Of a DNA stretch of 14,228 bases, positions 1 through 13,727 are shown in pieces (the first letter of the stretch is position 1; each line of letters begins with the position of its first letter). Both the position numbers and the translations under genes were made by a program. The stretch spans positions 1-14,228 of the forward strand of contig JAESSU010000479.1 in the NCBI GenBank assembly GCA_016763955.1, read 5' to 3'. Source of the DNA: Phycisphaeraceae bacterium. Lineage in GTDB: Bacteria; Planctomycetota; Phycisphaerae; Phycisphaerales; Phycisphaeraceae. The notes below the pieces were generated by a model that was not told the origin of the DNA, did no database searches, and saw only the letters and a list, made by a program, of their open reading frames with translations.

Positions 1-574
1 CGATGTACTCGCTTAATTTTCGGATACGTGGTGCCTTTCCGCCACGCACTTCACTGTTGATTTTTGAAATATTGAAGACATTGATATGGACATCACCTTG
101 CCAGTCCACGCCGGGCATGAAGTTGTCGGCTCGTCGGATACCTCGACCATCTTGATAATTTTCACCCGTCACGATCAATGGTGGGTTCTGAGTAAACTCG
201 CCGATCCCTTTAAACACATACTTGGGAGTGTTGGGCGTGAAGTCAGTAATCAGTTTGTTATAGATTGTCAGATTCGGTGCCAGCACAAAGAAATGTTTGA
301 TGCCCTGACTCTGATACAGGTACGTAATAAATGCACCCATCAGTCGCGTTTTACCTACGCCCGTTGCCAATGCAAAGCATAATGAAGGAAAATCCCTTTC
401 AAAATCCTTTACTGTCGGAAATTCACTGCTGATGGCTTTAATCGCTTGCGTCAGATCAGCATCTTTAGCGAGCGAGACAATCTCGCAAACACGTTGAAGA
501 ATTTCCAACGATTCCCGTTGAGGGGAACGCAGACTCAGGCGATTACTAATTGAGTTAACGTGTTGGATCGTCAT
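1..574 (-). CDS. res: Type III restriction enzyme Res subunit, N-terminal part (cut by window edge)
   Basis: The first 191 residues of a DEAD/DEAH-type translocase/endonuclease subunit can be read; the rest lies beyond the left edge. The sequence shows an N-terminal lead (MTIQHVNSISNRLSLRSPQ), then a Walker A motif ATGVGKT at about residues 70-76, followed by FFVLAPNLTIYNKL, as in motif Ia of type III Res proteins. The DEAH box, later helicase motifs and C-terminal PD-(D/E)XK nuclease of the family would be off-window. Res would cut DNA with Mod after ATP-driven movement along it. The ATG at 572-574 is two bases after the rhuM stop, with AAAGGT about 11 bases upstream as a moderate ribosome site. 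Family is inferred from the motif, and from mod lying upstream in the same operon. A related superfamily 2 restriction helicase is the main alternative. Confidence 0.8.
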   Translation of the reverse strand, partial: MTIQHVNSISNRLSLRSPQRESLEILQRVCEIVSLAKDADLTQAIKAISSEFPTVKDFERDFPSLCFALATGVGKTRLMGAFITYLYQSQGIKHFFVLAPNLTIYNKLITDFTPNTPKYVFKGIGEFTQNPPLIVTGENYQDGRGIRRADNFMPGVDWQGDVHINVFNISKINSEVRGGKAPRIRKLSEYI

Positions 575-576
575 GA

Positions 577-1626
577 TTATTTATTACCTTTTTCGTCGTT
601 GCTTTTTTTCTGGTCTTCGAGCTTCTTGATTTCCTTGACCGCCTTGAGGAAATGTTTTTCAACCGGCGTCGGTTCATTTAAAATTCGCTGACGGTATTTT
701 TCATATTCAGCTTGCGCTTTATCCAAAGCATCCTGATGACTGACCGAACCAGCATGAGTCAATAGCTCACGGCCTGTCATCTTGAGAAAATCATCCAGCC
801 GAGTCACCCAATCCTTCATGGACATGGGTTGACGATTCAATGGCTGCAACTCCGCGAGTTCCAGATATGCCGTGACCATGCGGTTGAGCATTTCAAGCTC
901 ATCAGGCTTCAGATAATTTTTAGCCACCGTAATGTCAGACTTTCGGATGTTTTCACGAGGCCAGTTCGTCATCCCCATATGCGATTCATGGGCATCGGCA
1001 CGCTCAACAATAATCTCTGCGGCTGTATGCCCGTGCGATGCCCAATGCAGTTTGTTTTGCACGACTTTGAAAAACGTTTGCGATAGCTCTGCCTTTGGAT
1101 CGTAGTCCATACTCGTCGCATAGATGTCCAGCACCTTACGCCAGAAAACTTTTTCCGACGAGCGAATGTCCCGAATGCGGGCAAGCAATTCATCAAAATA
1201 AAGGCCACCACCGGCGTCCTTGAGCCGCTGGTCGTCCATGGCAAAACCCTTGACCAAGTACTCACGCAGCCGTTGTGTTGCCCATATACGAAACTGGGTT
1301 CCGCGCAAGCTGTTGACCCGGTAACCCACCGAGATAATCGCATCGAGATTAAAATGCTCGATCACCCGTTCAACCTGGCGATTCCCTTCATTTTGAACTG
1401 TTGCAAATTTCGCAACAGTTGAGGTCATCTTCAGCTCACCTGAATCATAAATATTTTTCAAATGGCGACTTATGCCCGACTTATCCACATCGAACAATTC
1501 CGCCATCTGTTGCTGCGTGAGCCAAAGCGTCTCGCCTTCAAAGCGGCACTGGATATGTGTCTGACCGTCTTGGGCCTGATAGAGTAGGAACTCTCCGCCC
1601 GGGTCTTGGGGGATAATGTCAGCCAT
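577..1626 (-). CDS. rhuM: RhuM-family protein, accessory gene between mod and res
   Basis: This 349-residue protein looks like the virulence RhuM family, known from Salmonella SPI-3 and often found beside restriction-modification genes; its biochemical role is not established. The N-terminal third has a winged or helix-turn-helix-like segment (TLWLTQQQMAELFDVDKSGISRHL, about residues 33-57; ORF order L-W-L-T-Q-Q-Q-M-A-E-L-F), followed by the family stretch with VIEHFNLDAIISVGYRV and RGTQFRIWATQRLREYL near residues 87-125. The C-terminal tail from about residue 300 is charged and Lys/Glu-rich, probably helical. The ATG at 1624-1626 sits two bases after the mod stop and has a strong GGAGGT ribosome site (1635-1640) with 8-nt spacing. 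Position between mod and res suggests a regulatory or accessory role in that system, which is inference. Confidence 0.8.
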   Translation of the reverse strand: MADIIPQDPGGEFLLYQAQDGQTHIQCRFEGETLWLTQQQMAELFDVDKSGISRHLKNIYDSGELKMTSTVAKFATVQNEGNRQVERVIEHFNLDAIISVGYRVNSLRGTQFRIWATQRLREYLVKGFAMDDQRLKDAGGGLYFDELLARIRDIRSSEKVFWRKVLDIYATSMDYDPKAELSQTFFKVVQNKLHWASHGHTAAEIIVERADAHESHMGMTNWPRENIRKSDITVAKNYLKPDELEMLNRMVTAYLELAELQPLNRQPMSMKDWVTRLDDFLKMTGRELLTHAGSVSHQDALDKAQAEYEKYRQRILNEPTPVEKHFLKAVKEIKKLEDQKKSNDEKGNK

Positions 1627-1628
1627 GA

Positions 1629-3362
1629 TTACTTACCTCCCTTTGCATCAGTCGTGTCCAGATCGAACAACATCGGGCCTGTGTTTTGATCTTTGTTCTT
1701 GCCAAACTTCCGGGGGCGGGCGGGTTTTTTGTGGCCTCCAGAGTCCGTATCTTTTGAAACTTCCGGGGCCGGGGGGGCAGGGAGGTTCTCGATTTCCAGT
1801 GAGTAATCGTCGTGTCCCCATTCGCACTTGGTTAGCACGGCCTTGGGAATCTTTTTGATCGTCAGATTCTCAAATTGACTGGCATCACATCGAAACGCAC
1901 TGCAACAGATTAAGAGGCTGCGGTTGGGGCCGACCCCGTCGGACAGCTTGGTGAGCATGTCCTTACTCATAAATTGCGTGGTGACATAGATGAAATCGGC
2001 TTCGGTACTCTTTCCCTGCTGCCAGTACACCTGAGCATCGGGATCAAAGCTGAACCCTTCAAGTTTGCACATCGCCTCGGCAAGCATGGCGGCATTGAAC
2101 GTGGGATTGATAATCGGATTGTCCCATTCATCGTTCACAATAAGCGTAGGTCCAAGATGGTAATAGCGGAACCCGCCACCGCCTTTCCAATCAACCGTTT
2201 TTGTGATACCCCCAAGGTCTTCGCCGTCAATGACTTTTTGCAGGCGCGGGATGATATGCGTGTGGCAATGCTCGCCAAGTTCGATCATGATCCAGCGACG
2301 ACCCATCTTGTGAGCCACGGCACCCGTGGTGCCAGAGCCAGCGAAAGAGTCGAGGATAATGTCGTTGTTTTCAGTTGCAAGTGTTAGTACACGCCGAATC
2401 AATCTTTCTGGTTTAGGTGTAGAGAAAATATCAATCGAATTCAAAATATTAACTTCTTTTTTAGCTTCTTGGTTATTTCCAACATCATCATTTCTCCAAA
2501 CGGTAGTAGCAACGGTGCCTTGCCGAACACTATCGGGAAATTTCTTTAGGCGAGGTGATTTATTTAAGCCTTTTGCACCCCAATATAAATTATTAGATTC
2601 AATATTAATTTTTGTCGAATCCTTATTAAATGCCCAGACACGATTATGGTTAGGCCAGATTTCTTCACCTGTATTAGGATTCAATATTGGATAGTATAAA
2701 TTCGGTCTCTCCTCTTTAGATTTAGCACAAGTGTAATCAGAGGAAATCCACACACCCCGAGGATAATTGTCTGGATTTTTCATGTTTTTATTTTGCTTTT
2801 CACTTCTCGGCAGAAGTTTTGGTCTCCATAAAATTTTATTTTTTGCATAAACTAAAACATGATCATGATTATCACTTAACCATTTAGCATCATTTTGTGG
2901 CGAAGACTTCTTTTCCCAAATTACATTCGACACAAAATTATTCCGTCCAAACACTTCATCGCATAAAACTTTCAGATAGTGGCATTCATTGTCATCAATC
3001 GTAATCCAAAGAGAGCCATCTTCGGACAACAAACGACGAAGTAGTTCCAGCCGATCCCGCATTAACGACAGCCACAAAGAGTGTTCAACTCCATCGTCAT
3101 ACTGCTTGAAAGCCGACCCCGTGTTATACGGCGGATCGATAAAGATGCATTTAATTTTCCCTGCGAATTCCTGTTCGAGTGCTTTGAGTGCGAGGAGGTT
3201 ATCACCAAAGATGAGTCGATTATCGAAAGCATCCTTTTCGTTAACGCGATGGTCAGCATGATAGGATTTGTCCGGGTCCTCAATAAGAATACGCGGCTCA
3301 AGCTGTGGCCGATTTTCCTTGCCGATCCATGTCAATTCCAAACGATTTATATTCTTGGCCAT
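1629..3362 (-). CDS. mod: Type III DNA methyltransferase (Mod), beta-class N6-adenine/N4-cytosine
   Basis: Mod binds a short asymmetric site, methylates one strand using S-adenosylmethionine, and gives Res its specificity. The 577-residue protein has the catalytic motif DPPYNTG at residues 76-82 first and the cofactor motif [10 protein letters not shown] at 338-347 later. This is the beta-class order, with the target-recognition domain between them. Type III Mod enzymes make N6-methyladenine; N4-cytosine cannot be excluded from the motif alone. The DNA for residues about 130-320 is strikingly AT-rich. The C-terminal region (residues 525-577) is Pro/Lys-rich and low-complexity, and two copies of CCCCGGAAGTTT fall in it. 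The ATG at 3360-3362 has GAGGAG at 3369-3374 with 6-nt spacing; an ATG at 3364-3366 is not in frame. It lies 10 bp after the DUF4276 gene and 2 bp before rhuM. Confidence 0.92.
1704..1768 (-). repeat. Two copies of 12-mer CCCCGGAAGTTT inside mod
   Basis: On the minus strand CCCCGGAAGTTT occurs at 1715-1704 and again at 1768-1757, both within C-rich tracts. The first copy is read as Pro-Arg-Lys-Phe (codons 550-553). The second is read one base out of that phase, giving Ala-Pro-Glu-Val-Ser. Similarity therefore lies in the DNA and not in the protein. The same 12-mer occurs three times in the thiC riboswitch region. Confidence 0.8.
2395..2975 (-). other. AT-rich target-recognition segment of mod
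   Basis: This stretch encodes about residues 130-320 of Mod, between the DPPY and FAGSG motifs, where beta-class methyltransferases carry the target-recognition domain. Hand counts give 25 % G+C at 2401-2460, 23 % at 2581-2640 and 25 % at 2821-2880, against 45 % at 2101-2160 and 52 % at 3001-3060. The sharp contrast suggests that this domain was exchanged independently of the rest of the gene, as is known for type III mod alleles. Confidence 0.6.
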
Positions 3363-3372
3363 GCATGGCTCC

Positions 3373-3933
3373 TCAATTCTTACCTATCAATTTTTGCAAC
3401 CCGGAAATAAACACACTGAAGCTGTGAGAGCGGGTATTGGTCACATTCAGATAGGGACCGATTGCCCGAGAGCCGGCTATTTTCTGATAGCGTTTGCCCG
3501 TGAGTATTTCAAGTTCTTCTGCGGCGTTGGCCAACGAATCCGGCGTTCTGTATTTGGCTTTATTCTGTTTGGCTGCCAGATTCCGTATATTCAAAGCCCG
3601 TTCCACGGCAGCTAGGTCCGCCAGATACCAGCTTTCAAGTTCATGGCAAGCAATACGCACAAGCGTTTTGGGTTTGCGTGCCTGTGTGCATTTACGAACC
3701 AACTCATTTTTCACTGTGCGACAGTCCGCAGAATCCTTATCGCGTAGGACAACGAATCGGGCCTCCGGATTACGATAGCCTTGAAGCCGCCGCACCATCT
3801 GCTTTTCTAGATCCTGTTTACCTTCAAAGACGATATAACGGATCGCAATGTTGTCGGAGCACAAACGTGGAAGCACTCCGCGGAGCATGGCTTCGGCAGA
3901 TGATTCTTCAAGTAGAAAAACGAGTTCATTCAT
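3373..3933 (-). CDS. DUF4276-family, TOPRIM-like protein (putative nuclease partner of the ATPase)
   Basis: This 186-residue protein matches the pattern of DUF4276: an N-terminal strand ending in paired acidic residues ([12 protein letters not shown]9/E10), [11 protein letters not shown] at about 35-45, a strand ending in an acidic cluster ([12 protein letters not shown]65 and D67), and [14 protein letters not shown] at 93-106. A glutamate followed by a DxD is the arrangement of TOPRIM metal sites, so nuclease-like activity is plausible but not shown. The start codon overlaps the ATPase stop in an ATGA junction, which implies translational coupling and a two-gene unit. Similar ATPase plus TOPRIM-like pairs are known in defence modules such as OLD-type, AbiL and PARIS systems. 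Assigning this pair to any of those would need structure or HMM comparison. Confidence 0.75.
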
Positions 3934-5117
3934 TGCGGATCAACTCCCCCGAAGAATCCTTGCTTCCAGAGATATCCCATCTGGTCACCCTCGGCCATGT
4001 AGTCACTGACCTGCTGATCTTCCGAAGCACGTTTGACGCTTGTATATCCTTTTTCCTTGACCAACCAGAACACTTCTTGAAGCTTGCAGGCATTAAGAAA
4101 ATCCGGGGAATGTGTTGAGATAAAAACCTGGCCGCCTCGATGTGCATAATCCCGAAATTCTTCGGCCAGTTCCATTAGCAGTTTGGGATAGAGCTGATTT
4201 TCCGGTTCCTCGACACACAACAACGGGTGCGGGGACGGGTCATATAAAAGGATCAGGTATGCCAACATTTTGATGGTGCCATCAGACACATGACGCGCCA
4301 TGAAAGGGTCTTTAAATGAGCTGTCCTGAAACTTCAAAAGCACCCGTCCTTCCTCGGTGATTTTAGCTTCGACATGAGAAATACCGGGCACTCGACTCTT
4401 GAGCCGATCGATGATTGTGTCGAACACCTTGCGATGCCACTTGTAGAGAAACTCCGTGACCAGTGCAAGGTTCTCGCCTTGTGTGGAAAGATGTTGGGCA
4501 TGTCCGGCTTCCTGTTCGGAACGGGCGCGTTGAATATGAAAGTCCGAGACATGCCAATTGGAAATCAGTTCGCCAAGTGCCATGGCTGCGGGAAATTTTT
4601 TGAACTGCGCCAGTCCTTTGACCGCCAATGTATCAGCTGATTTAAGAACGTGATCTTCACGCTGCAAGTCCTGTTCATCGGTGACCTGATCGGGCTCATT
4701 GGTGACAGCTTGGCCTACTCCTTTGCGAAAGTCCAGAAAATGCCACGGTTGACCTCTGCTGCCGCGTCGATACTTGAGAAGTTCACGTTCGATATAGGGA
4801 GTGCCATCCTCTTCGTTGATCGCCAACGAATAGGTGATCAGAGGTGAGCCATCCTTTTCCCTAAATTTGAGTTCGATTTCGATAGGGCCTGTTGTATTGC
4901 GACTGCGAGCTTCAAGGAAACCTCGGCTGCCTCCAAGCTTAGTCAGAGCAACGTGAACATCTTCTGTCATAGCGTCTTTCAGAAATCCGAACACACTGAA
5001 GATGGTGGACTTACCGCTGCCATTTGCCCCAACTAGCACACACATTCGTGGGATGTTGCGAATTTCAGCATCTTTGAATGCCTTGAAATTTTTGAGTTTG
5101 ATTGATTCTAGTTTCAT
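3930..5117 (-). CDS. AAA ATPase of the RecF/SMC-like (AAA_15/AAA_21) type, defence sensor-like
   Basis: This 395-residue ABC-type ATPase begins with the family-typical MKLESIKLKNFKAF. Walker A is GANGSGKST (residues 30-38), a signature-like VSDGTIKMLA is at 277-286, Walker B with catalytic Glu is LLCVEEPEN (299-307), and the H-loop is STHSPDF (334-340). All motifs look intact. I chose ATG 5115-5117 over the longer frame from 5162. It has GGAAGGA with about 9-nt spacing, matches family N-termini and does not overlap the helicase, whose stop is at 5147-5149. The longer form would add 15 residues. Its stop overlaps the DUF4276 start, so the two proteins probably form a complex in which the ATPase controls the small partner. 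The trigger is unknown. Confidence 0.85.
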   Translation of the reverse strand: MKLESIKLKNFKAFKDAEIRNIPRMCVLVGANGSGKSTIFSVFGFLKDAMTEDVHVALTKLGGSRGFLEARSRNTTGPIEIELKFREKDGSPLITYSLAINEEDGTPYIERELLKYRRGSRGQPWHFLDFRKGVGQAVTNEPDQVTDEQDLQREDHVLKSADTLAVKGLAQFKKFPAAMALGELISNWHVSDFHIQRARSEQEAGHAQHLSTQGENLALVTEFLYKWHRKVFDTIIDRLKSRVPGISHVEAKITEEGRVLLKFQDSSFKDPFMARHVSDGTIKMLAYLILLYDPSPHPLLCVEEPENQLYPKLLMELAEEFRDYAHRGGQVFISTHSPDFLNACKLQEVFWLVKEKGYTSVKRASEDQQVSDYMAEGDQMGYLWKQGFFGGVDPQ

Positions 5118-5146
5118 GTGGTGATGTCCTTCCTGAGTCCCAAACC

Positions 5147-8002
5147 TTACGTGATCATCCACCTAATGGTGAACAGGGTTTGGACCGTGTTACTTTGCGT
5201 TAATTGCTTTTCAATCTTACCAATCAATTCCTCTCGCTGCATATCGATGGCATCCTGTGCTTCAAAGAGTTCACGGCGTTTACCATTACGGCGGTGTTCT
5301 AGATCACGCAGTTGTTTTTGGAAGGCTAGTTTATCCTGTAACGACTGAGACAGCGCAGAAGTACGCCTAAGTTCCCGGATGCATTTGTCGAGTTCTTTGA
5401 GTTCATGTTCCAGTGACAGCTTCAGGTCTTCGCTCCAGCGGTCGAGCTTGTTGACTTCCTCATCAAAGAACTGGCCGTTGCGGTTTTCGATTTCCTGCAA
5501 ACGGGTCTGAATATTGCTCTGACGTAAAGAAGCCATATCCGGAGCGTTAGAGACTTCAGAGCCAACCACGGCAGGCAGGGACAGCAGCTTAGCGCAGAGT
5601 TCTTGATCTAATGGCTGATCCTGATCGGTGCGGGCAGCAAAGATCAGAAATTCATCAACCTGCACAGCGGAAACGGTCAATTTAGAAATTTCCAGCCAAC
5701 CTGACTGGCCGACGAGGGGCTCGATGATACTGATCTTGGAACGGTGTTGGGTGTAATCCAAGGTCAAATGGGCGGCAGGCAGCTCACGGGCAATGGCTTG
5801 TTCGATGAGTTTTAAGGCCAACGGGTGATCCGGGCGGTAGAAATGCTCATCGGTTTGCTGGGCGACTTTCCAATCAAGGTTGTACCAGCCTGCGGGGGCA
5901 TCGCTGCCGATATAGTTAAAACGCAGGGTTTGATCATCAAACTGCGTGGTGTCTGGCAACTCTGACCGGGTTAAATCCATCAACCACATTTCACGCAAAG
6001 ATTTGAATTCGTGCGTGAGCTGATTTCGCAGCTTCAGCCGTGTGCGGACTTCCTCATCAAAATGTTCAAGTAAAGCCTGATTGGTGGATGCCATGCGGGA
6101 TTGAATTTTTTCATCCAACTCAGCCTGCAAAGTATCAAAGGCAGATTGAATTTCCTCATTGGTTCGGCAGTTCTGATAAACCTCAGCAATGCGGCGTTCA
6201 ATGTCCACGCCTGACTCCAATACGCCGAGCACTTCATCGGAAGCACCGAACACGCCATCAAAGAGTTTGAACTTTTCACTAAGCAGTTCAAAGACCCGCT
6301 TGTCAGCTTCGTTATGCAGGTTCAGGAAGTTGACGACGACAACATCATGCAACTGGCCATAACGGTGACATCGACCAATCCGCTGTTCGACACGTTGGGG
6401 ATTCCAAGGCAGATCGAAATTGACAATCAATGAACAGAACTGCAAGTTAACGCCTTCGGCAGCGGCTTCGGTGGCAACGAGAATGGTGGCCTGCTCCTTG
6501 AAGCGATCCACGAGGGCAGCTTTCATATCAATAGCCCGTGAGCCGGTGATGTGGTCGGTGTTCTGATGTTGGGCAACCCATTGCTCGTAAATGGCTGCTT
6601 GGTGGGGATGGTTGTTGGTGCCGTTGATGGTAACAACTTGGCCATCATACCCATTGGCGTTGAGCAGATTATAGAGATACTGCTGGGTTTCACGGGACTC
6701 TGTGAAGATGACGGCCTTGCGGGCAGCGCCGAGTTCATGGGCTTTGGTAAAGGCGATTTTCAATGCTGGCAAAAGCTTTTCACCTTTGGCATTGTGACCG
6801 ATGCCCGATGCCATGTCAGCATATTGACGTATCTCGGCTAGTTCTTCCTTGAGTTCTTCAGGGTCAATTTCAAGGTCTAACTGTAATGGGGTAGAGACAT
6901 CTTCCAACTCATCGGTTAATTCATCAATGCCTTCCAGATCATCATCATCAAACAAATTCAGATCATCACAGAGATTTTCCAAACGGTCTGCCAAACGGCG
7001 GAGTGTGCGAGCAATGGCAAAGGTGGATGAAGACATAAGCTTCCGCAGAACCATTGTGATGAGCATCCGTTGGCCAGCGGGCAAAGCATAGAGCACCTCA
7101 CGTTGCAAATACAGCGTAATTCGATCATAAAGATCACGCTCGGCATCCGTGGGCCAGAACTCCTGTGTAATGGGAATGCGATTGGTGAACGGCACGTATT
7201 CAGTCACCTGCTTACGCAACGTGCGTGTACAGACTGAGGCAATTCGTTGCTTAAGTAACAAGTTGCGAGTGTCATCATCTGCAACATTAATAAATTGGTC
7301 ACGGAATGATGCGACATCACCAAAAACATGCGGATCAATAACGCTAACGAGACTAAAAAGTTCCAGCAGTGAGTTTTGCAAAGGAGTTGCGGTGAGCAAA
7401 AACTTAGGAGCGTTACCGACAGCATCGGCGATTTTATGAGCGATAGATTTTTTAGATACGGGACTGTTGATTAACCGTGTTCTAGAGCGATGAATATTGC
7501 GCATTCTATGTGCTTCATCAATCACGACAGCATCCCAAGGTATCTGCGATATTTCAACCTCTTTCAAGGCTGCAAAGTTGTACGAGCAGATGACCACTTT
7601 ATCGAGTTGGTTGAAAGGGTTGCTAACACCTTCCTTACGCATGCGGTTGAAGATACGAGAATCCAGCACTTCAGATTGCAGGTAGAACTTTTCAATAAGC
7701 TCCTGTTGCCACTGATTCCGGAGCATGGCCGGGACAATGATCAGGATACGGCGGCGGCGTTCGGCCCACTTCTGTGACAGAACAATGCCAGCTTTTATGG
7801 TATTACCCAAGCCAACTTTGTCAGCTAGGATCGCACCGTTGGTGAAAGGTGAACGTAGTGCAAAGAGTGCAGCATCAATTTGATGTGGATTCAGATCGAC
7901 TCGAGCATTAGCAATTGATCGCGACAACGCAGCGATATCACCGCCAGAACCTTGAAGTGTCAAAGCGTGTGCCCAATACTGACTGTGATAGGGTGTTCCC
8001 AT
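5147..8002 (-). CDS. SNF2/HepA-type helicase with altered Walker A motif
   Basis: This 951-residue superfamily 2 protein has RapA/HepA-like architecture. An N-terminal lead is followed by motif I at about 56-71, DEAH at 162-165 (VVIDEAHRMRN), motif III TATPLQNS at 204-211, motif V VATEAAAEGVNLQ and motif VI RVEQRIGRCHRYGQ at 537-550. The C-terminal third ends in a predicted coiled coil, about residues 825-935. Motif I reads ILADKVGLGNTIKAG where family members usually have ILADEVGLGKTIEAG, so the ATP-binding lysine is asparagine (codon AAT at 7804-7802). All other motifs look normal. The ATG at 8002 is directly preceded in frame by TAA, so the start cannot be further upstream; the ribosome site is weak (GAAAG). 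It is the first gene of the six-gene operon and probably translocates or remodels DNA, if it is active. Confidence 0.88.
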   Translation of the reverse strand: MGTPYHSQYWAHALTLQGSGGDIAALSRSIANARVDLNPHQIDAALFALRSPFTNGAILADKVGLGNTIKAGIVLSQKWAERRRRILIIVPAMLRNQWQQELIEKFYLQSEVLDSRIFNRMRKEGVSNPFNQLDKVVICSYNFAALKEVEISQIPWDAVVIDEAHRMRNIHRSRTRLINSPVSKKSIAHKIADAVGNAPKFLLTATPLQNSLLELFSLVSVIDPHVFGDVASFRDQFINVADDDTRNLLLKQRIASVCTRTLRKQVTEYVPFTNRIPITQEFWPTDAERDLYDRITLYLQREVLYALPAGQRMLITMVLRKLMSSSTFAIARTLRRLADRLENLCDDLNLFDDDDLEGIDELTDELEDVSTPLQLDLEIDPEELKEELAEIRQYADMASGIGHNAKGEKLLPALKIAFTKAHELGAARKAVIFTESRETQQYLYNLLNANGYDGQVVTINGTNNHPHQAAIYEQWVAQHQNTDHITGSRAIDMKAALVDRFKEQATILVATEAAAEGVNLQFCSLIVNFDLPWNPQRVEQRIGRCHRYGQLHDVVVVNFLNLHNEADKRVFELLSEKFKLFDGVFGASDEVLGVLESGVDIERRIAEVYQNCRTNEEIQSAFDTLQAELDEKIQSRMASTNQALLEHFDEEVRTRLKLRNQLTHEFKSLREMWLMDLTRSELPDTTQFDDQTLRFNYIGSDAPAGWYNLDWKVAQQTDEHFYRPDHPLALKLIEQAIARELPAAHLTLDYTQHRSKISIIEPLVGQSGWLEISKLTVSAVQVDEFLIFAARTDQDQPLDQELCAKLLSLPAVVGSEVSNAPDMASLRQSNIQTRLQEIENRNGQFFDEEVNKLDRWSEDLKLSLEHELKELDKCIRELRRTSALSQSLQDKLAFQKQLRDLEHRRNGKRRELFEAQDAIDMQREELIGKIEKQLTQSNTVQTLFTIRWMIT

Positions 8003-8821: not shown

Positions 8822-9033
8822 TGGGGAAAGCAATGACAACAAATCCAATTGACAAATTACTGCCACTAAAAGTAGTTGGCTCGCTAATCGGTGGTTTTTG
8901 CAAGCGGACCGTTCAACGGATGATACATGCAGGCGAATTGCCTGAGCCAGTTAAAGTCCGGGGACGATCATGCTTGCCTGAATCAGCTGTGGTCGATTAT
9001 TTGAATCGCAAGAAAAAGGAGTCCGGGGCATGA
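8821..9033 (+). CDS. AlpA-like helix-turn-helix protein, probable excisionase/regulator
   Basis: This 70-residue protein has the layout of AlpA/MerR-type HTH proteins: LPLKVVGSLIGGFCKRTVQRMIHAGELPEPVKVRGRSCL, where the recognition helix is around RTVQRMIH and the wing around KVRGRSCLPESAV, then a basic tail NRKKKE. Such proteins are typical recombination directionality factors or regulators beside tyrosine integrases. The ATG at 8821 overlaps the upstream stop. An in-frame ATG at 8833 with GGGGAA at 8823-8828 is an equally good start and would give a 66-residue protein. The stop overlaps the integrase ATG (ATGA at 9030-9033), so the two are probably translationally coupled. Confidence 0.8.
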   Translation: MGKAMTTNPIDKLLPLKVVGSLIGGFCKRTVQRMIHAGELPEPVKVRGRSCLPESAVVDYLNRKKKESGA

Positions 9034-10148
9034 TCCAGAATGTTTTTCTAAAAAAAAGAGGTGTCAAAGCCAAGAATCCTAAATCCAAGCCGCATTACTA
9101 TGGGCGGTACAAAATCGATGGCGACAAAAAGATCACGGAGGTCTCACTTCGCACCACAGACAAACGGGTTGCGGAACAAAAACTGGCCCTGATCGTCAAA
9201 GAAGCACAACAGGAACGTGCAGGCATCATTGCACCCAAGGGAATGCGACAAGCTGCGACCGTAACCGTGGCTGAACATCTTGCAAATCACGTTGCAGACT
9301 TGAAAGTCAAGGGGAGAGACAAGAAGCACTACGGCCTTGTCCAATCACGTATCACACGATTAATCGCTGAATGTGGCTGGAAACATTTGCGGGACATCAC
9401 CCCTCAAAGTTTTTTGTCTTGGCGGTCCAAAGAAGAGAAGCTGTCAGCAAATCACTCAATGAGTATCTGAGTGAAATCAAGACCATGCTCAACTGGCTGA
9501 TTAAGCAAAATTGCATCCTAGCCAATGCCTTAAACTGCATCGAAAGTGTGAGTACCGTCGGCAAGGAAACTTTCAAGCGTCGAGCATTAACCGATGATGA
9601 AGTCAGACGTCTACTTGAAGTGTCTAAAGTACGACGACCAATCTATCTTACTGCCCTGCTCACGGGGTTACGTCGAAAAGAACTCAGCAAGCTGATCTGC
9701 GAAGATTTCAAACTATACAACACCGACACCCCTACTATCCGGCTCCGCGCAGCCGTCACCAAGAATAAGCAACCCGGTGTAATGGGACTTCGAGAGGACT
9801 TGGCTAAAGAATTAAGAACAATCATTGCACCCGATGCCAAACCAACCGCATTGCCCTGGCGAGTCCCCAAGCCTGAGACAGTAAAGCGTGACTTAATTAC
9901 AGCAGGCATCGAGCCTGTTGACGCACGGAAACGGCGTGTAGACCTTCACGCCTTGCGACACACCTTAGCAACCAACCTAGCCAAGTCTGGCATCTCTCCA
10001 CGCACCGTAATGGAAGTCATGAGGCATAGCGATATGCGGTTAACGATGAAGGTCTATACCGATGAGGGGTTACTACCGACTGCTGAAGCTGTTGAGGGGC
10101 TTCCCCGGTACATGGACATGCTGAGCAATGTGACCACGCAAGATGTCA

Positions 10149-10184
10149 AAATCTGTCCACAAAAAACTGAAATTTGTCCACAAA
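10149..10184 (+). repeat. Direct repeat near the attachment site, possible integrase arm sites
   Basis: AAATCTGTCCACAAA (10149-10163) and AAATTTGTCCACAAA (10170-10184) match at 14 of 15 positions, with starts 21 bp apart, about two helical turns. TGTCGCAG also occurs twice nearby, at 10219-10226 and 10284-10291. Their place between the integrase core and the tRNA fits arm-type binding sites, but no binding evidence exists. Confidence 0.4.
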
Positions 10185-10246
10185 CAGGGGTCTTAGAAGG
10201 TCAAGCCAAGTCACAGTCTGTCGCAGATGTGCAAAGTCTAGAAACA

Positions 10247-10276
10247 ACAAAAGCCCTGAAAAATCAGGGCTTTTGT
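10247..10276. terminator. Bidirectional rho-independent terminator between integrase and tRNA
   Basis: A perfect 13-bp inverted repeat (arm core AAAAGCCCTGA) with a 4-base AAAA loop has A runs on the left and T runs on the right, so it can act in both directions. On the minus strand it lies about 50 bp beyond the tRNA-Asp 3' end. On the plus strand it lies inside the extended integrase reading frame. Confidence 0.85.
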
Positions 10277-10323
10277 CAAGGCTTGTCGCAGTCTGACATC
10301 TCGTGTCATCCTGTCTTACAAAG

Positions 10324-10345
10324 CGAGGGTGACGGGATTCGAACC
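10324..10345. other. Probable island attachment site (att) in tRNA-Asp 3' end
   Basis: The T-arm and acceptor end of tRNA-Asp lie next to a tyrosine integrase module, a standard integration target. The island would extend leftwards from the tRNA 3' end. The exact core cannot be defined because the matching copy at the other island end is not in the window. Confidence 0.6.
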
Positions 10346-10397
10346 CGCAACCTCTGGATCGACAGTCCAGTGCTCTAACCAATTGAGCTACACCCCC
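10324..10397 (-). tRNA. trnD: tRNA-Asp (anticodon GTC)
   Basis: A 74-nt cloverleaf folds on the minus strand. The acceptor is GGGGGTG/CACCCTC with one G-U pair, D stem GCTC/GAGC, anticodon stem CTGGA/TCCAG with loop CTGTCGA, and T arm GCGGG-TTCGAAT-CCCGT. Anticodon GTC reads Asp codons and the discriminator base is G, as expected for tRNA-Asp. CCA is not encoded. The gene is intact, so island insertion rebuilt or preserved the 3' end. Confidence 0.95.
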
Positions 10398-10898: not shown

Positions 10899-12764
10899 CT
10901 ATTGGCTCACATCCACATTCACCTGCACCAACTTGGCCTGCTGGATGACCTGTGCCTGCTCGTCATCCAAGTAATCGCTGTGACAGACTGCTTTGCCTTC
11001 TTCAGCACCAACGCCCTTCTGGGTCTTGCTAGCGAGCTTATGGATCTCATCCGGTGAGAGGTGGCCACGTTGCTTGAGGATTTGAGCCTGTTCGTCGGTT
11101 AGTGCACCGCTTTGTTGAGCTTTTTCCCAGGCGTAGGATTCATCTTTGCCAGAGAAAAACTCGTTAATTTCTTTGCTAATTCGGACAGAACACCAATCGT
11201 GGCCGCACATCGCACAAAAGTCCGTATCGACATCAAGGTCTTCATCGTGATAAGCACGAGCCACATCAGGATCAAACGAGAGATCAAAATGCTTCTGCCA
11301 GTTCAATGCTGCACGGGCTTTGGTCAGTTCATCATCACGATCCCGTGAGCCGGGGATGCCCAGAGCGATGTCCGCAGCGTGTGCGGCGATTTTGTAAGCC
11401 ACACAGCCTTGCTTTACGTCATCCTTCTTAGGGAGCCCTAGGTGTTCCTTGGGCGTGACATAACAAAGCATTGCTGCACCATGATATGCAGCAGCGGTTG
11501 CGCCGATGCAACTGGTGATATGGTCATAGCCGGGGAAGATGTCAGTGACCAATGGGCCAAGGACATAAAACGGCGCACCGTGACAAAGCGTGCGTTGGAG
11601 CTTCATGTTGTATTCAATTTGATCAAAAGGCACATGGCCGGGGCCTTCGACCATGACCTGCACACCCTTTCGCCAAGCACGTTCGGTGAGGCGACCGATT
11701 TCTGCTAGTTCGAGTAATTGCAGGTCATCGGTTGCATCTGCAAGACCGCCGGGGCGACAGCCGTCTCCGATACTAAAGGTCACATCATAACTACGGAGAA
11801 TGTCACAGATTTTTTCCCAACAGGTGTTGGTTGGATTTTCTTTTTGGTGGGTAATCATCCATTTGGCAAGCAGTGATCCGCCACGAGAGACTAGGCCGAT
11901 GAGTCTCTTTTGGGCAAAAGGTAAGTGGGCTTTGAGCAGACCTGCATGGACGGTGAAGTAGTCAACGCCTTGGTTGGCTTGATGCTCGATGGTTTCGAGG
12001 ATCGTTGTTTCGTCGAGGTCTTCGAGCTTGCGGCCAATGATCATTGAATAGATTGGCACGGTGCCAATGGGAGTCGTGGAATTTTCGATTAGTGCTTGAC
12101 GGCAGGCATCTAAATCTCCGCCGGTCGATAAGTCCATAACGGTGTCTGCGCCCCAGCGTTCTGCCCATTGCAGTTTTTCGACTTCTTCATCCGTGCCACT
12201 ACTAACAGGCGATGCGCCCATATTGGCATTGATTTTGGTCTTCGATGCACGACCAATAGCCATGGGGTCGAGCTTATATTCTAGATGCTTAACGTTAGCG
12301 GGGATGACCATACGCCCTGCGCCAATTTCATCACGAACTTGTTCGACGGTCAGATGCGGTTCACGTTCAGTGACGCGAATCATCTGAGCGGTGATGATGC
12401 CAATGCGGGCACTTTCAAGTTGGGTAATGGGATGAAAATCAGCAGGCACGGTGGTGCTTCGGAAGCTGCCATCTGCTTGTTTAAAGGTGATTGTTTTAGT
12501 GCCCGCATTGACTGATTCACTTGCAGCAGCTTGGACTAACTGTGTGTTCCAGCCTTGGGGCAAAAAGTCCCACGCAGTCTTGGAAGAAGGCTTGGGCATG
12601 CCCGGGGTATCCGGTGAACTAAACGTCAGCGGCCCGCCAATCTCAGGACGGTTGGCAAAACTGCCGGGCGTGGTGGCTTGCGATTCAATGCCGGGATTCC
12701 CACCGATGGCTGGGTAGGTCCATGGGCGGTCTTCAGAAGATGCGGTATCAGTAGGTTTAATCAT
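10899..12764 (-). CDS. thiC: Phosphomethylpyrimidine synthase ThiC
   Basis: ThiC is a radical-SAM enzyme that converts aminoimidazole ribotide into hydroxymethylpyrimidine phosphate for thiamine synthesis. The 621-residue protein has the family core, including ITAQMIRVTEREP, NANMGASPVSSG, GADTVMDLSTGGDL, FSIGDGCRPGG and MVEGPGHVPFDQI. It also has the C-terminal iron-sulfur motif CAMCGHDWC (Cys 517, 520, 525), the CxxCxxxxC of this unusual radical-SAM class. I chose ATG 12762-12764 because AAGGAG (12773-12778) then has 8-nt spacing; a TTG at 12768-12770 has only 2 nt. A tail of about 70 residues follows the cluster domain, carrying DEQAQ twice and one Cys. It is preceded by a TPP riboswitch and followed by a terminator, so it is probably monocistronic. 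Confidence 0.97.
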   Translation of the reverse strand: MIKPTDTASSEDRPWTYPAIGGNPGIESQATTPGSFANRPEIGGPLTFSSPDTPGMPKPSSKTAWDFLPQGWNTQLVQAAASESVNAGTKTITFKQADGSFRSTTVPADFHPITQLESARIGIITAQMIRVTEREPHLTVEQVRDEIGAGRMVIPANVKHLEYKLDPMAIGRASKTKINANMGASPVSSGTDEEVEKLQWAERWGADTVMDLSTGGDLDACRQALIENSTTPIGTVPIYSMIIGRKLEDLDETTILETIEHQANQGVDYFTVHAGLLKAHLPFAQKRLIGLVSRGGSLLAKWMITHQKENPTNTCWEKICDILRSYDVTFSIGDGCRPGGLADATDDLQLLELAEIGRLTERAWRKGVQVMVEGPGHVPFDQIEYNMKLQRTLCHGAPFYVLGPLVTDIFPGYDHITSCIGATAAAYHGAAMLCYVTPKEHLGLPKKDDVKQGCVAYKIAAHAADIALGIPGSRDRDDELTKARAALNWQKHFDLSFDPDVARAYHDEDLDVDTDFCAMCGHDWCSVRISKEINEFFSGKDESYAWEKAQQSGALTDEQAQILKQRGHLSPDEIHKLASKTQKGVGAEEGKAVCHSDYLDDEQAQVIQQAKLVQVNVDVSQ

Positions 12765-12814
12765 GGCCAAGGCTCCTTGCGGTTAAATACGGGAAAGACT
12801 GCAAGGTCGGCCAT
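12762..12814 (-). promoter_or_regulatory. thiC expression platform: hairpin hiding the ribosome site and start codon
   Basis: On the minus strand ATGGCC-GA-CCTTGC (12814-12801) is complementary in two blocks to GCAAGG-AGCCTT-GGCCAT (12780-12762). The pairing would cover the Shine-Dalgarno AAGGAG and the start codon. Immediately upstream, CCAT-5 nt-ATGG can form a competing small hairpin using the same ATGG. No T run follows, so control is probably translational. Confidence 0.6.
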
Positions 12815-12823
12815 AAAAAATGG

Positions 12824-13014
12824 TCGCTTCCCTACGCAGCCTGCCGTATGGCGACAACTGGTCAGGTGCAAAGGGTTTGTTCTCAGCCCCCCCCCGGAAG
12901 TTTCCTATGGTGCCAATTAACACTGGGGAAAACTTCCGGGGGGGAACTCCAACCAGAACTTCCATCGTGACACTGAAGCACAAAGGAAACTTCCGGGGGG
13001 GGCACCCCTAGCGA
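12824..13014 (-). promoter_or_regulatory. TPP riboswitch (THI element) with very long P3 stem
   Basis: The thiC leader carries the THI-box signatures in order. P1 is TCGCT (13014-13010) with AGCGA (12828-12824). Then come AGGGGTG (P2 5' side), CTGAGA (12886-12881), AAACCC (P2 3' side), ACCTGA (12867-12862) and CGTAGGGA (12836-12829). P3 is expanded: C8-GGAAGTTTCC (13002-12985) pairs with GGAAACTTCC-G9 (12905-12887), about 17-18 bp, around a 79-nt insert. The aptamer is 191 nt instead of about 100. The segment between ACCTGA and CGTAGGGA also departs from the usual TAATxCC pattern. TPP binding should shut off thiC. Confidence 0.92.
12887..13002. repeat. Three copies of the CCCCGGAAGTTT repeat in the riboswitch
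   Basis: The 12-mer lies on the plus strand at 12892-12903 and on the minus strand at 12941-12930 and 12998-12987. The outer two form the P3 arms. The middle copy is a second 5' arm (C7-GGAAGTTTTCC) that could pair with the same 3' arm with one bulged base and a 21-nt loop. Confidence 0.85.
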
Positions 13015-13021
13015 TGGGGTG

Positions 13022-13050
13022 AGTATAAGCTACACTCACTGTAATCACAA
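13022..13050 (-). promoter_or_regulatory. thiC promoter
   Basis: TTGTGA (13050-13045) and TATACT (13027-13022) are 17 bp apart on the minus strand. The predicted transcription start is around 13015, immediately before the first P1 base of the riboswitch, which supports both calls. The -35 box overlaps the recX start codon. Confidence 0.65.
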
Positions 13051-13727
13051 TGTCTAACATGCAAACCATCACAGCTATCAAACCCACACTCCGGGATCCC
13101 ACGCGCTGGTCGATTAAGGTCGGGCGTAAGTTTGTGGGTGCGCTGCCTCAGGCAGAAATTGAAGAGTTGGGGCTAAAAGTCGATACGCCTTGGACTGCGG
13201 AACTGATGCAGCGGGTGGATCGAGCTGCTCAATATGACAAGATTTATCGCTCTGCTATTTTTCGTATTGGCAGGCGGATGTACAGCACCGCGGACCTTGC
13301 TAAAAAGCTCAAGATGTCCAAGTATCAGCCGACCCCGGAAATTGTCGCACAGGTCATTGAAAAATGTCAGTCACTAGGATTACTTGATGACCAAGCATAT
13401 GGCCGAGCGTTGATTCATGACATTCAACTTAGCAGACCCGCAGGCCCTAGATTGCTCCAAACCAAGCTCATGCAAAAAGGGCTTGACCGATCACTTATCG
13501 AGCAGCTCATCCGTGAGACCGAAGGTGATCGTGATGACTTTGAAGCAGCGATGGGAATGGCTCAAAAAAAGTGGCAATCACTGGCACGTTTGCCCATGCA
13601 AAAAGCTCGCCAGCGACTCTATGGCCAACTTGCACGTCGGGGCTTTGAGATGAGTACTATTTCGCGCGTGATGGAAAATTTGGATTGGAATTCACTCGCA
13701 GATGCGTCGGAAGACGAGTGGGCTTAA
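13050..13727 (+). CDS. recX: Recombination regulator RecX
   Basis: RecX binds RecA filaments and modulates RecA activity. The 225-residue protein has an N-terminal extension (SIKVGRKFVGALPQAEIEELGL) and then the helical repeats of the family: AIFRIGRRMYSTADLAKKL, VIEKCQSLGLLDDQAYGRALIHD and RPAGPRLLQTKLMQKGLD, ending with QRLYGQLARRGFEMSTISRVM. Length is somewhat above the usual 150-200 because of the extension. The start at ATG 13050 has no Shine-Dalgarno sequence; TGTAAT at 13040-13045 (5 of 6 to TATAAT) would place transcription start at the ATG, so leaderless translation is possible. A second in-frame ATG is at 13059. It is divergent from thiC and convergent with ddl. No recA is adjacent. 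Confidence 0.9.
   Translation: MSNMQTITAIKPTLRDPTRWSIKVGRKFVGALPQAEIEELGLKVDTPWTAELMQRVDRAAQYDKIYRSAIFRIGRRMYSTADLAKKLKMSKYQPTPEIVAQVIEKCQSLGLLDDQAYGRALIHDIQLSRPAGPRLLQTKLMQKGLDRSLIEQLIRETEGDRDDFEAAMGMAQKKWQSLARLPMQKARQRLYGQLARRGFEMSTISRVMENLDWNSLADASEDEWA

Follow-up and report, generated by a model that had tools for sequence, protein, structure and literature searches.

The window, by which we mean the whole stretch of 14,228 nt analysed here (contig JAESSU010000479.1 of the Phycisphaeraceae bacterium assembly GCA_016763955.1), carries on its minus strand, at 13014-12824, an RNA element of the vitamin B1-sensing (TPP) switch type. The element lies between thiC and the divergent recX gene (13050-13727), whose product contains three RecX domains. 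According to the Pfam assignment of thiC, which is located directly downstream, the element is the leader of a thiamine-synthesis gene; the start of thiC is the ATG at 12764, and the list of open reading frames begins it at TTG 12770. The window also displays a defence island (2-8002, minus strand) composed of type III restriction and modification genes, a RhuM-like PDC-S05 gene, a HEC-01 pair (AAA ATPase and DUF4276) and a DrmD-like SNF2 helicase, beside integrase frames (9030-10378, plus strand) and a tRNA-Asp gene (10323-10397, minus strand). The integrase is split between two overlapping frames (9030-9470 and 9371-10378, plus strand; the domain search concerns the second) and may therefore be frameshifted or misassembled. 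The features of the leader and of thiC are listed in Table 1.

Table 1. Positions of the thiC leader features within the window, in the direction of transcription
Feature	Positions	Strand	Basis or remark
P1 5' strand TCGCT	13010..13014	-	model alignment
P2 5' strand AGGGGT	13004..13009	-	pairs with CCCT 12875-12872, and T13004 with A12878; model alignment and Rfam structure line
P3 outer 5' arm C8GGAAGTTTCC, dispersed-repeat copy	12985..13002	-	
Proposed P3 hairpin copy 1, 58 nt	12951..13008	-	aligns with copy 2 and the P3 of G003; folds alone
P3 inner (second) 5' arm, dispersed-repeat copy	12930..12944	-	
Proposed P3 hairpin copy 2, 64 nt	12887..12950	-	alignment; folds alone, near-perfect stem
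P3 3' arm, inverted repeat copy	12887..12905	-	18 of 19 nt pair with the outer arm
CTGAGA, J3-2, putative pyrimidine pocket by analogy	12881..12886	-	sequence and model alignment
P2 3' strand	12872..12878	-	model alignment
P4/P5 arm, including ACCTGA (12867-12862) and CGTAGGGA (12836-12829)	12829..12867	-	model alignment
P1 3' strand AGCGA	12824..12828	-	model alignment
Putative expression platform	12763..12814	-	ViennaRNA fold
thiC coding sequence	10899..12764	-	Pfam ThiC_Rad_SAM, E = 1.1e-173; start from sequence and genus alignment

At the gathering score, a search of the whole window with Rfam retrieved the tRNA alone and no TPP riboswitch. At a loose threshold, RF00059 reached 30.1 bits at 12904-12812, below its gathering score of 54.3, and the 5' half of this match is wrong, the P3 3' arm being taken for P1/P2. 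The other seven of the eight loose Rfam matches at 12700-13150 belong to models for microRNAs, frameshift elements and SRP RNA; their scores fall far short of the respective thresholds, and these families were rejected. The leaders of three genus mates (G001, G002, and G003) are matched by RF00059 in the right register at 44.6-46.6 bits, also below 54.3; the length of P3 is the probable cause of these low scores. When RNAalifold was applied to 34 leaders, P3 was recovered with compensatory changes and P1/P2 were misplaced because of a misaligned CCC block. Therefore, we built a model, R1, from 13 leaders of one type from relatives, excluding the window, with a structure drawn from that of Rfam. 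R1 matches 13015-12821 (76 bits, E = 6.8e-19) as the sole match in the window at E<=1, and an unfiltered search of 451 bases gives no more than 3.0 bits for the runner-up. The recognition of the element by covariance search, on which the initial annotation had made its reading depend, is thus only partial with Rfam (sub-threshold score, wrong 5' half) and succeeds with the model of relatives, whose register agrees with that annotation.

Both the sequence and the model alignment place the element exactly where the initial annotation had put it, from the 5' strand to the 3' strand of P1. The proposal that a TPP-type aptamer on thiC keeps P1, P2 and the signature sequences is borne out by the R1 score and by the sequence itself, in which the conserved CUGAGA, ACCUGA and CGUAGGGA stretches are all present (12886-12881, 12867-12862, and 12836-12829, respectively). 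The examined pairs of P1, P2 and P4 are all standard, and P3 is closed by C12886 with G13003. The element is, on the sequence evidence, most likely a TPP riboswitch, the response of which would have a raised threshold or be impaired.

P3 consists of three copies of one short sequence, namely two 5' arms and an inverted 3' arm. In its outer form, 18 consecutive Watson-Crick pairs join 13002-12985 with 12905-12888, and 79 nt separate the two arms, in agreement with the perfect stem of about 17-18 bp and the 79-nt insert described initially; the C8 and G9 tracts, thought to cap this stem, are found at its base instead. The inner arm (12944-12930) shares all of its 15 nt with 13001-12987 and is complementary throughout to 12903-12889, confirming that a second 5' arm can pair with the same 3' arm. 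When up to three mismatches are allowed, the 17-nt arm occurs at five sites in the window, three of them inside P3, against 0.03 expected. This count, the fold z-score of -5.96 and the copies of the repeat across the genome rule out a chance hairpin. Degenerate copies of the repeat are also located at 1702-1718 and 1755-1771, inside the type III methyltransferase coding region.

The size of this P3 was compared with that of relatives in several ways. R1 was searched against 246 Planctomycetota genomes with stricter filters, under which weak matches are lost, and retrieved 87 matches in 83 genomes with a median length of 88 nt; the element of the window is the longest of these (195 nt), followed by two of 154 and 153 nt. 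A separate R1 search on six chosen genomes gave 141, 143 and 134 nt for the genus mates and 177 nt for G020. The leader of the latter (L093) has a P3 of 73 nt, a GC-rich hairpin without the repeat, and its free fold is computed to lose P2 too. In a regular-expression survey of 110 thiC loci, drawn from two search sets that overlap in their origin and are thus not independent, the 3' half was found in 71 and a measurable 5' half in 59 of these 71, including the locus of the window. By this measure P3 is 116 nt long in the window, 54 nt in G003, 64 nt in G001 and 62 nt in G002, and only 10-37 nt in 53 of the 59 measurable leaders; the leader of Phycisphaeraceae bacterium NAT22 (L095, PAIY01000123.1) repeats that of G001. 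Two leaders with a short P3 of 29 nt (L082 of G017, and L147) also have CCCCGGAAGTG in the 5' arm.

The alignment of relatives' thiC leaders, proposed in the initial annotation as a check, shows that three genus mates also possess a long P3 (54-64 nt) with the repeat, as CCCCGGAA, in its 5' arm. The second 5' arm is seen in one species of the four genus members, and the 3' half of the genus alignment, from CTGAGA through CGTAGGGA and P1, is nearly unchanged. Of the mutually exclusive P3 folds suggested initially, the competition between two 5' arms stands at the level of sequence and computed pairing; a purposeful two-state P3 is not established, because the arm is a repeat found genome-wide, the second arm is absent from the genus mates and the insert fits a duplication. 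A purposeful double P3 switch is, accordingly, without support from conservation.

The arm of P3 is a copy of a dispersed short repeat, CnGGAAGTT, with a unit of about 11 nt. The 12-mer AACTTCCGGGGG occurs in the genome of the window (G000) 84 times forward and 85 times reverse, i.e., as 169 exact copies, against none in either orientation for the reversed control. Exact copies were found in 37 of the 61 genomes searched, this one included, with 77-139 per genome in the genus mates, 0-253 in the family and 1-18 in eight of the 24 genomes of other families; the reversed controls gave 0-3 per genome across the 61. CCCCCGGAAG ranks with the most strongly over-represented 10-mers of a contiguous 400-kb stretch of G002, occurring 22 times where 0.6 would be expected. 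The length of the C run varies by genome, often being 8 in G000 and 3-5 in G002. A second dispersed palindrome, approximately GTCAYTCCCGCG..GCGGGARTCCAGTGG, is abundant in G002 (L175-L194) and also present in G001 (L208), some copies having CCCCCGGAAG in the loop.

The repeat sites were then examined for their position relative to stop codons, a site being counted when it directly follows a stop closing an open frame of 240 nt or more; sampling was around exact copies in G000, G019 and G009, and around thiC in G002. In the G000 sample, 15 of 79 repeat sites are directly post-stop; the same holds for 5 of 277 C runs outside the repeat and for 37 of 28,000 positions taken at random. The corresponding fractions are 5/36, 10/2,110 and 222/100,000 in G002 (500 kb), while repeat sites and other C runs give 2/18 against 8/1,787 in G001, 2/22 against 1/60 in G019, and 0/14 against 1/36 in G009, so that the high copy count of the last genome may have another cause. 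Within the 22 nt downstream of a site, a degenerate second copy is present for 22 of 92 sites in G000, 9 of 39 in G002, 2 of 18 in G001, 7 of 22 in G019 and 3 of 16 in G009, the control offset giving zero in each of the five genomes. Degenerate tandem CnGGAAGTT arrays directly after stop codons were seen in G000 (L005, L008, L014, L025, and L036) and in G002 (L175-L194).

Between G001 and G002, an 11-nt unit differs exactly after a TAA, and pieces of 7-9 nt differ at three other places. These four are among the 47 indels (5-60 nt) counted over 115,261 aligned columns, and all four have the extra unit in G002, in what is a two-genome comparison with no outgroup. At the start of the thiC coding region of G003 (L066), a 12-column in-frame extra stretch contains the repeat and is absent in the three other genus members. 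Insertion into hairpin loops, suggested as a general rule by three of the four G001/G002 indels, was rejected: strong flanking stems accompany 1 of the 74 G000 sites, 1 of 35 in G002, 1 of 17 in G001 and 3 of 17 in G019, against 3.3, 4.4, 6.5, and 3.5%, respectively, in re-paired controls. A REP/RAYT origin was likewise rejected, as a repeat copy was present at one of 12 examined Y1-domain loci, a sample of the many in these genomes; Y1 domains occur in 46 of the 51 family genomes irrespective of the repeat count. Exact inverted pairs within 60 nt were detected in five of these 51 genomes and at two places in G000, the second being C261, against its 169 exact copies; among these exact pairs, inverted doublets of the REP/REPIN type were not found to be the usual arrangement.

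Regarding the second arm, the P3 of the window can be divided into two consecutive hairpins. Copy 1 alone folds at -24.5 kcal/mol (3 of 500 shuffles as low) and copy 2 at -39.4 kcal/mol (0 of 500). Beyond the shared repeat, the alignment score between them was reached by 13 of 5000 shuffles, and those with the P3 of G003 by 6 (copy 1) and 2 (copy 2) of 5000, significance being measured here and below against mononucleotide shuffles only. The alignments with G001 (74 and 927 of 5000) and G002 (415 and 358 of 5000) are unconvincing, and the P3 of G003 itself gave 33 and 876 of 5000 against G001 and G002, respectively. The simplest reading of these alignments, supported but not proven, is that the insert would have arisen when a P3 hairpin resembling that of G003 was duplicated in tandem. 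It is less probable, though worth weighing, that no duplication occurred and that P3 was lengthened by independent repeat insertions, its 3' arm being an inverted copy. Tandem second copies are indeed common (22 of the 92 G000 sites), repeat units distinguish G001 from G002 at four places, and the C261 pair offers another close inverted arrangement in the same genome; against this, the stretches between the repeats align too, and close inverted pairs are rare, with two places in G000 for 169 single copies. Very improbably, the structure could be an artefact of a fragmented assembly (559 contigs, 78.5% complete) with homopolymers and 15-nt repeats, since the two copies have diverged, so that neither simply mirrors the other, and since both flanks align to the genus mates, whose independent assemblies also show a long P3.

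Downstream of the aptamer, 12814-12801 can pair with 12780-12763 in the ViennaRNA fold, covering the Shine-Dalgarno AAGGAG (12778-12773) and the start codon; the AAGG is paired in the window, G001 and G002, and largely paired in G003. The control of thiC would thus be translational, as in the E. coli thiM TPP riboswitch, for which translational control is described in an excerpt of PMC7237195.

Folding energies were computed without Mg2+, ligand or kinetics. In the free ensemble, the pair probability is 0.97 for the inner P3, 0.01 for the outer P3 and 0.0 for P2, whose GGGG is engaged by the outer-arm C tract. The free ensemble energy is -97.6 kcal/mol, compared with -89.8 for the outer form and -88.9 for the inner two-hairpin form when P1, P2, P4 and P5 are enforced; the cost is thus about 8-9 kcal/mol, and the two aptamer-competent forms are equal within 1 kcal/mol. 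Enforcing P2 and P4 alone costs 5.4 kcal/mol in the window, compared with 1.5 in G003, 2.3 in G001 and 1.9 in G002, and, in the eight other relatives that could be used, 0.0, 0.3, 1.5, 2.4, 2.4, 4.5, 4.6 and 5.2. Among these twelve leaders, a set that leaves out G026 (wrong-register parse), the cost is greatest in the window, and G020 is close. Because three relatives without the duplicated arm (G053, G024, and G020) pay 4.5-5.2 kcal/mol, the computed cost alone is no proof of impairment. In folds of growing prefixes, the outer form is optimal at 131 nt, just as the 3' arm is complete, the inner form from 140 nt, and a P2 capped by both hairpins appears at 160-175 nt. These computations suggest that impairment or a raised threshold is no less likely than a new function, and that it is a better bet than a purposeful double switch.

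Together, these observations lead us to a main reading, to which we give a probability of roughly 0.55: a TPP riboswitch on thiC whose P3 has been enlarged by the repeat and duplicated in tandem, the competing arms imposing a higher TPP need or a partial impairment. The riboswitch would control thiC, most likely by hiding the Shine-Dalgarno sequence when TPP is bound. Its P3, variable in length among relatives, would have been enlarged in the genus by CnGGAAGTT sequence, and the hairpin then duplicated in the species of the window (58 and 64 nt), so that two 5' arms would compete for one 3' arm. With no ligand, the inner arm is predicted to take the 3' arm, leaving copy 1 to form its own hairpin and the 5' strand of P2 sequestered by the C tract; the aptamer-competent fold would contain a single long outer P3 or, alternatively, a pair of tandem hairpins. 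TPP would then have to pay about 5-8 kcal/mol to form the aptamer, implying a higher TPP need than in the genus mates, or a partial impairment.

Two other functional readings deserve attention. The riboswitch could be decaying, the duplication having trapped P2 with a wrong partner and left thiC little regulated. The P2 probability of 0.0 in the free ensemble agrees with such a decay, as does G019, a family member with 253 repeat copies, upstream of whose thiC neither Rfam nor R1 found a TPP element. Nevertheless, decay should have touched the 3' half and the Shine-Dalgarno hairpin, and the former, from CTGAGA through CGTAGGGA and P1, is nearly unchanged in the genus while the latter is kept; for this reason, we consider this reading unlikely. 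More doubtful still is an adaptive role for the duplicated arm as a second switch, in which inner and outer P3 would exchange and thereby tune or sharpen the TPP response. The near-equal energies of the two aptamer-competent forms and the passage of the prefix folds through outer, inner and two-hairpin forms would fit such a switch, but its second arm exists in only one of the four genus members, with no conservation favouring selection. Returning to the repeat-enlarged, duplicated P3 of the main reading, its structure is for the most part explained by the growth of a tolerant stem from a dispersed repeat. A broader proposal, which we advance tentatively and hold to be rather unlikely as a whole, is that an ultra-short proliferating repeat (CnGGAAGTT, about 11 nt) of a Phycisphaeraceae-type family forms arrays after stop codons, built the long P3 of the genus and was then duplicated into a competitor that shifts the TPP set point by strand exchange.

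Extended P3 stems have been described previously. In the thiC TPP riboswitch of Klebsiella pneumoniae Kp04, P3 carries two insertions (17 and 7 nt), and the part of that report dealing with P3 also describes extended stems in Klebsiella aerogenes and Serratia, and an effect that P3 can have on the response to an analogue (PMC12632268). Both Kp04 and the window have a thiC leader with a conserved core and extra sequence confined to P3, whereas the P3 of the window spans 116 nt and has a second, competing 5' arm from a dispersed repeat. Fungal TPP aptamers share a P3 variable in sequence and length; they are eukaryotic, and a duplicated arm is not mentioned in the corresponding excerpt of PMC5882874. 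Concerning the repeat, one of the pneumococcal BOX elements, as outlined in sections of PMC3049150, lies between two T-box riboswitches, and BOX encodes the stop codon in 36 cases; both repeats are dispersed and found in a riboswitch leader and at gene 3' ends, but BOX is longer, modular and located between aptamers, while the CnGGAAGTT unit of about 11 nt is located within one aptamer stem. REP/REPIN sequences, as characterised in extracts of PMC3116915, are also short, dispersed and extragenic; in contrast, CnGGAAGTT is mostly single or in direct tandem, has few inverted doublets and, in our sample, is not near Y1 transposase genes. Like the DNA uptake signal sequences in terminators, it is short, common to relatives and enriched just after genes; those sequences generally have 1,000 or more copies (PMC1852404, in part), a number not reached by the 169 exact 12-mers of this incomplete genome, where the repeat occurs in arrays, or by the sample maximum of 253. 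Our search of the open-access literature found no paper on the CnGGAAGTT repeat or on a duplicated P3 arm. Long P3 stems are already known, and a repeat-built, duplicated P3 is a new form of them.

In practical terms, the aptamer described here, like its counterparts in three genus mates, is missed at the Rfam threshold. The family of repeats placed just after stop codons is amenable to testing, and the genus mates without the second arm provide a natural comparison for the control of riboswitch sensitivity by a peripheral helix. Here, a very short genomic repeat appears to have entered and reshaped a metabolite-sensing RNA, the core of which is intact.
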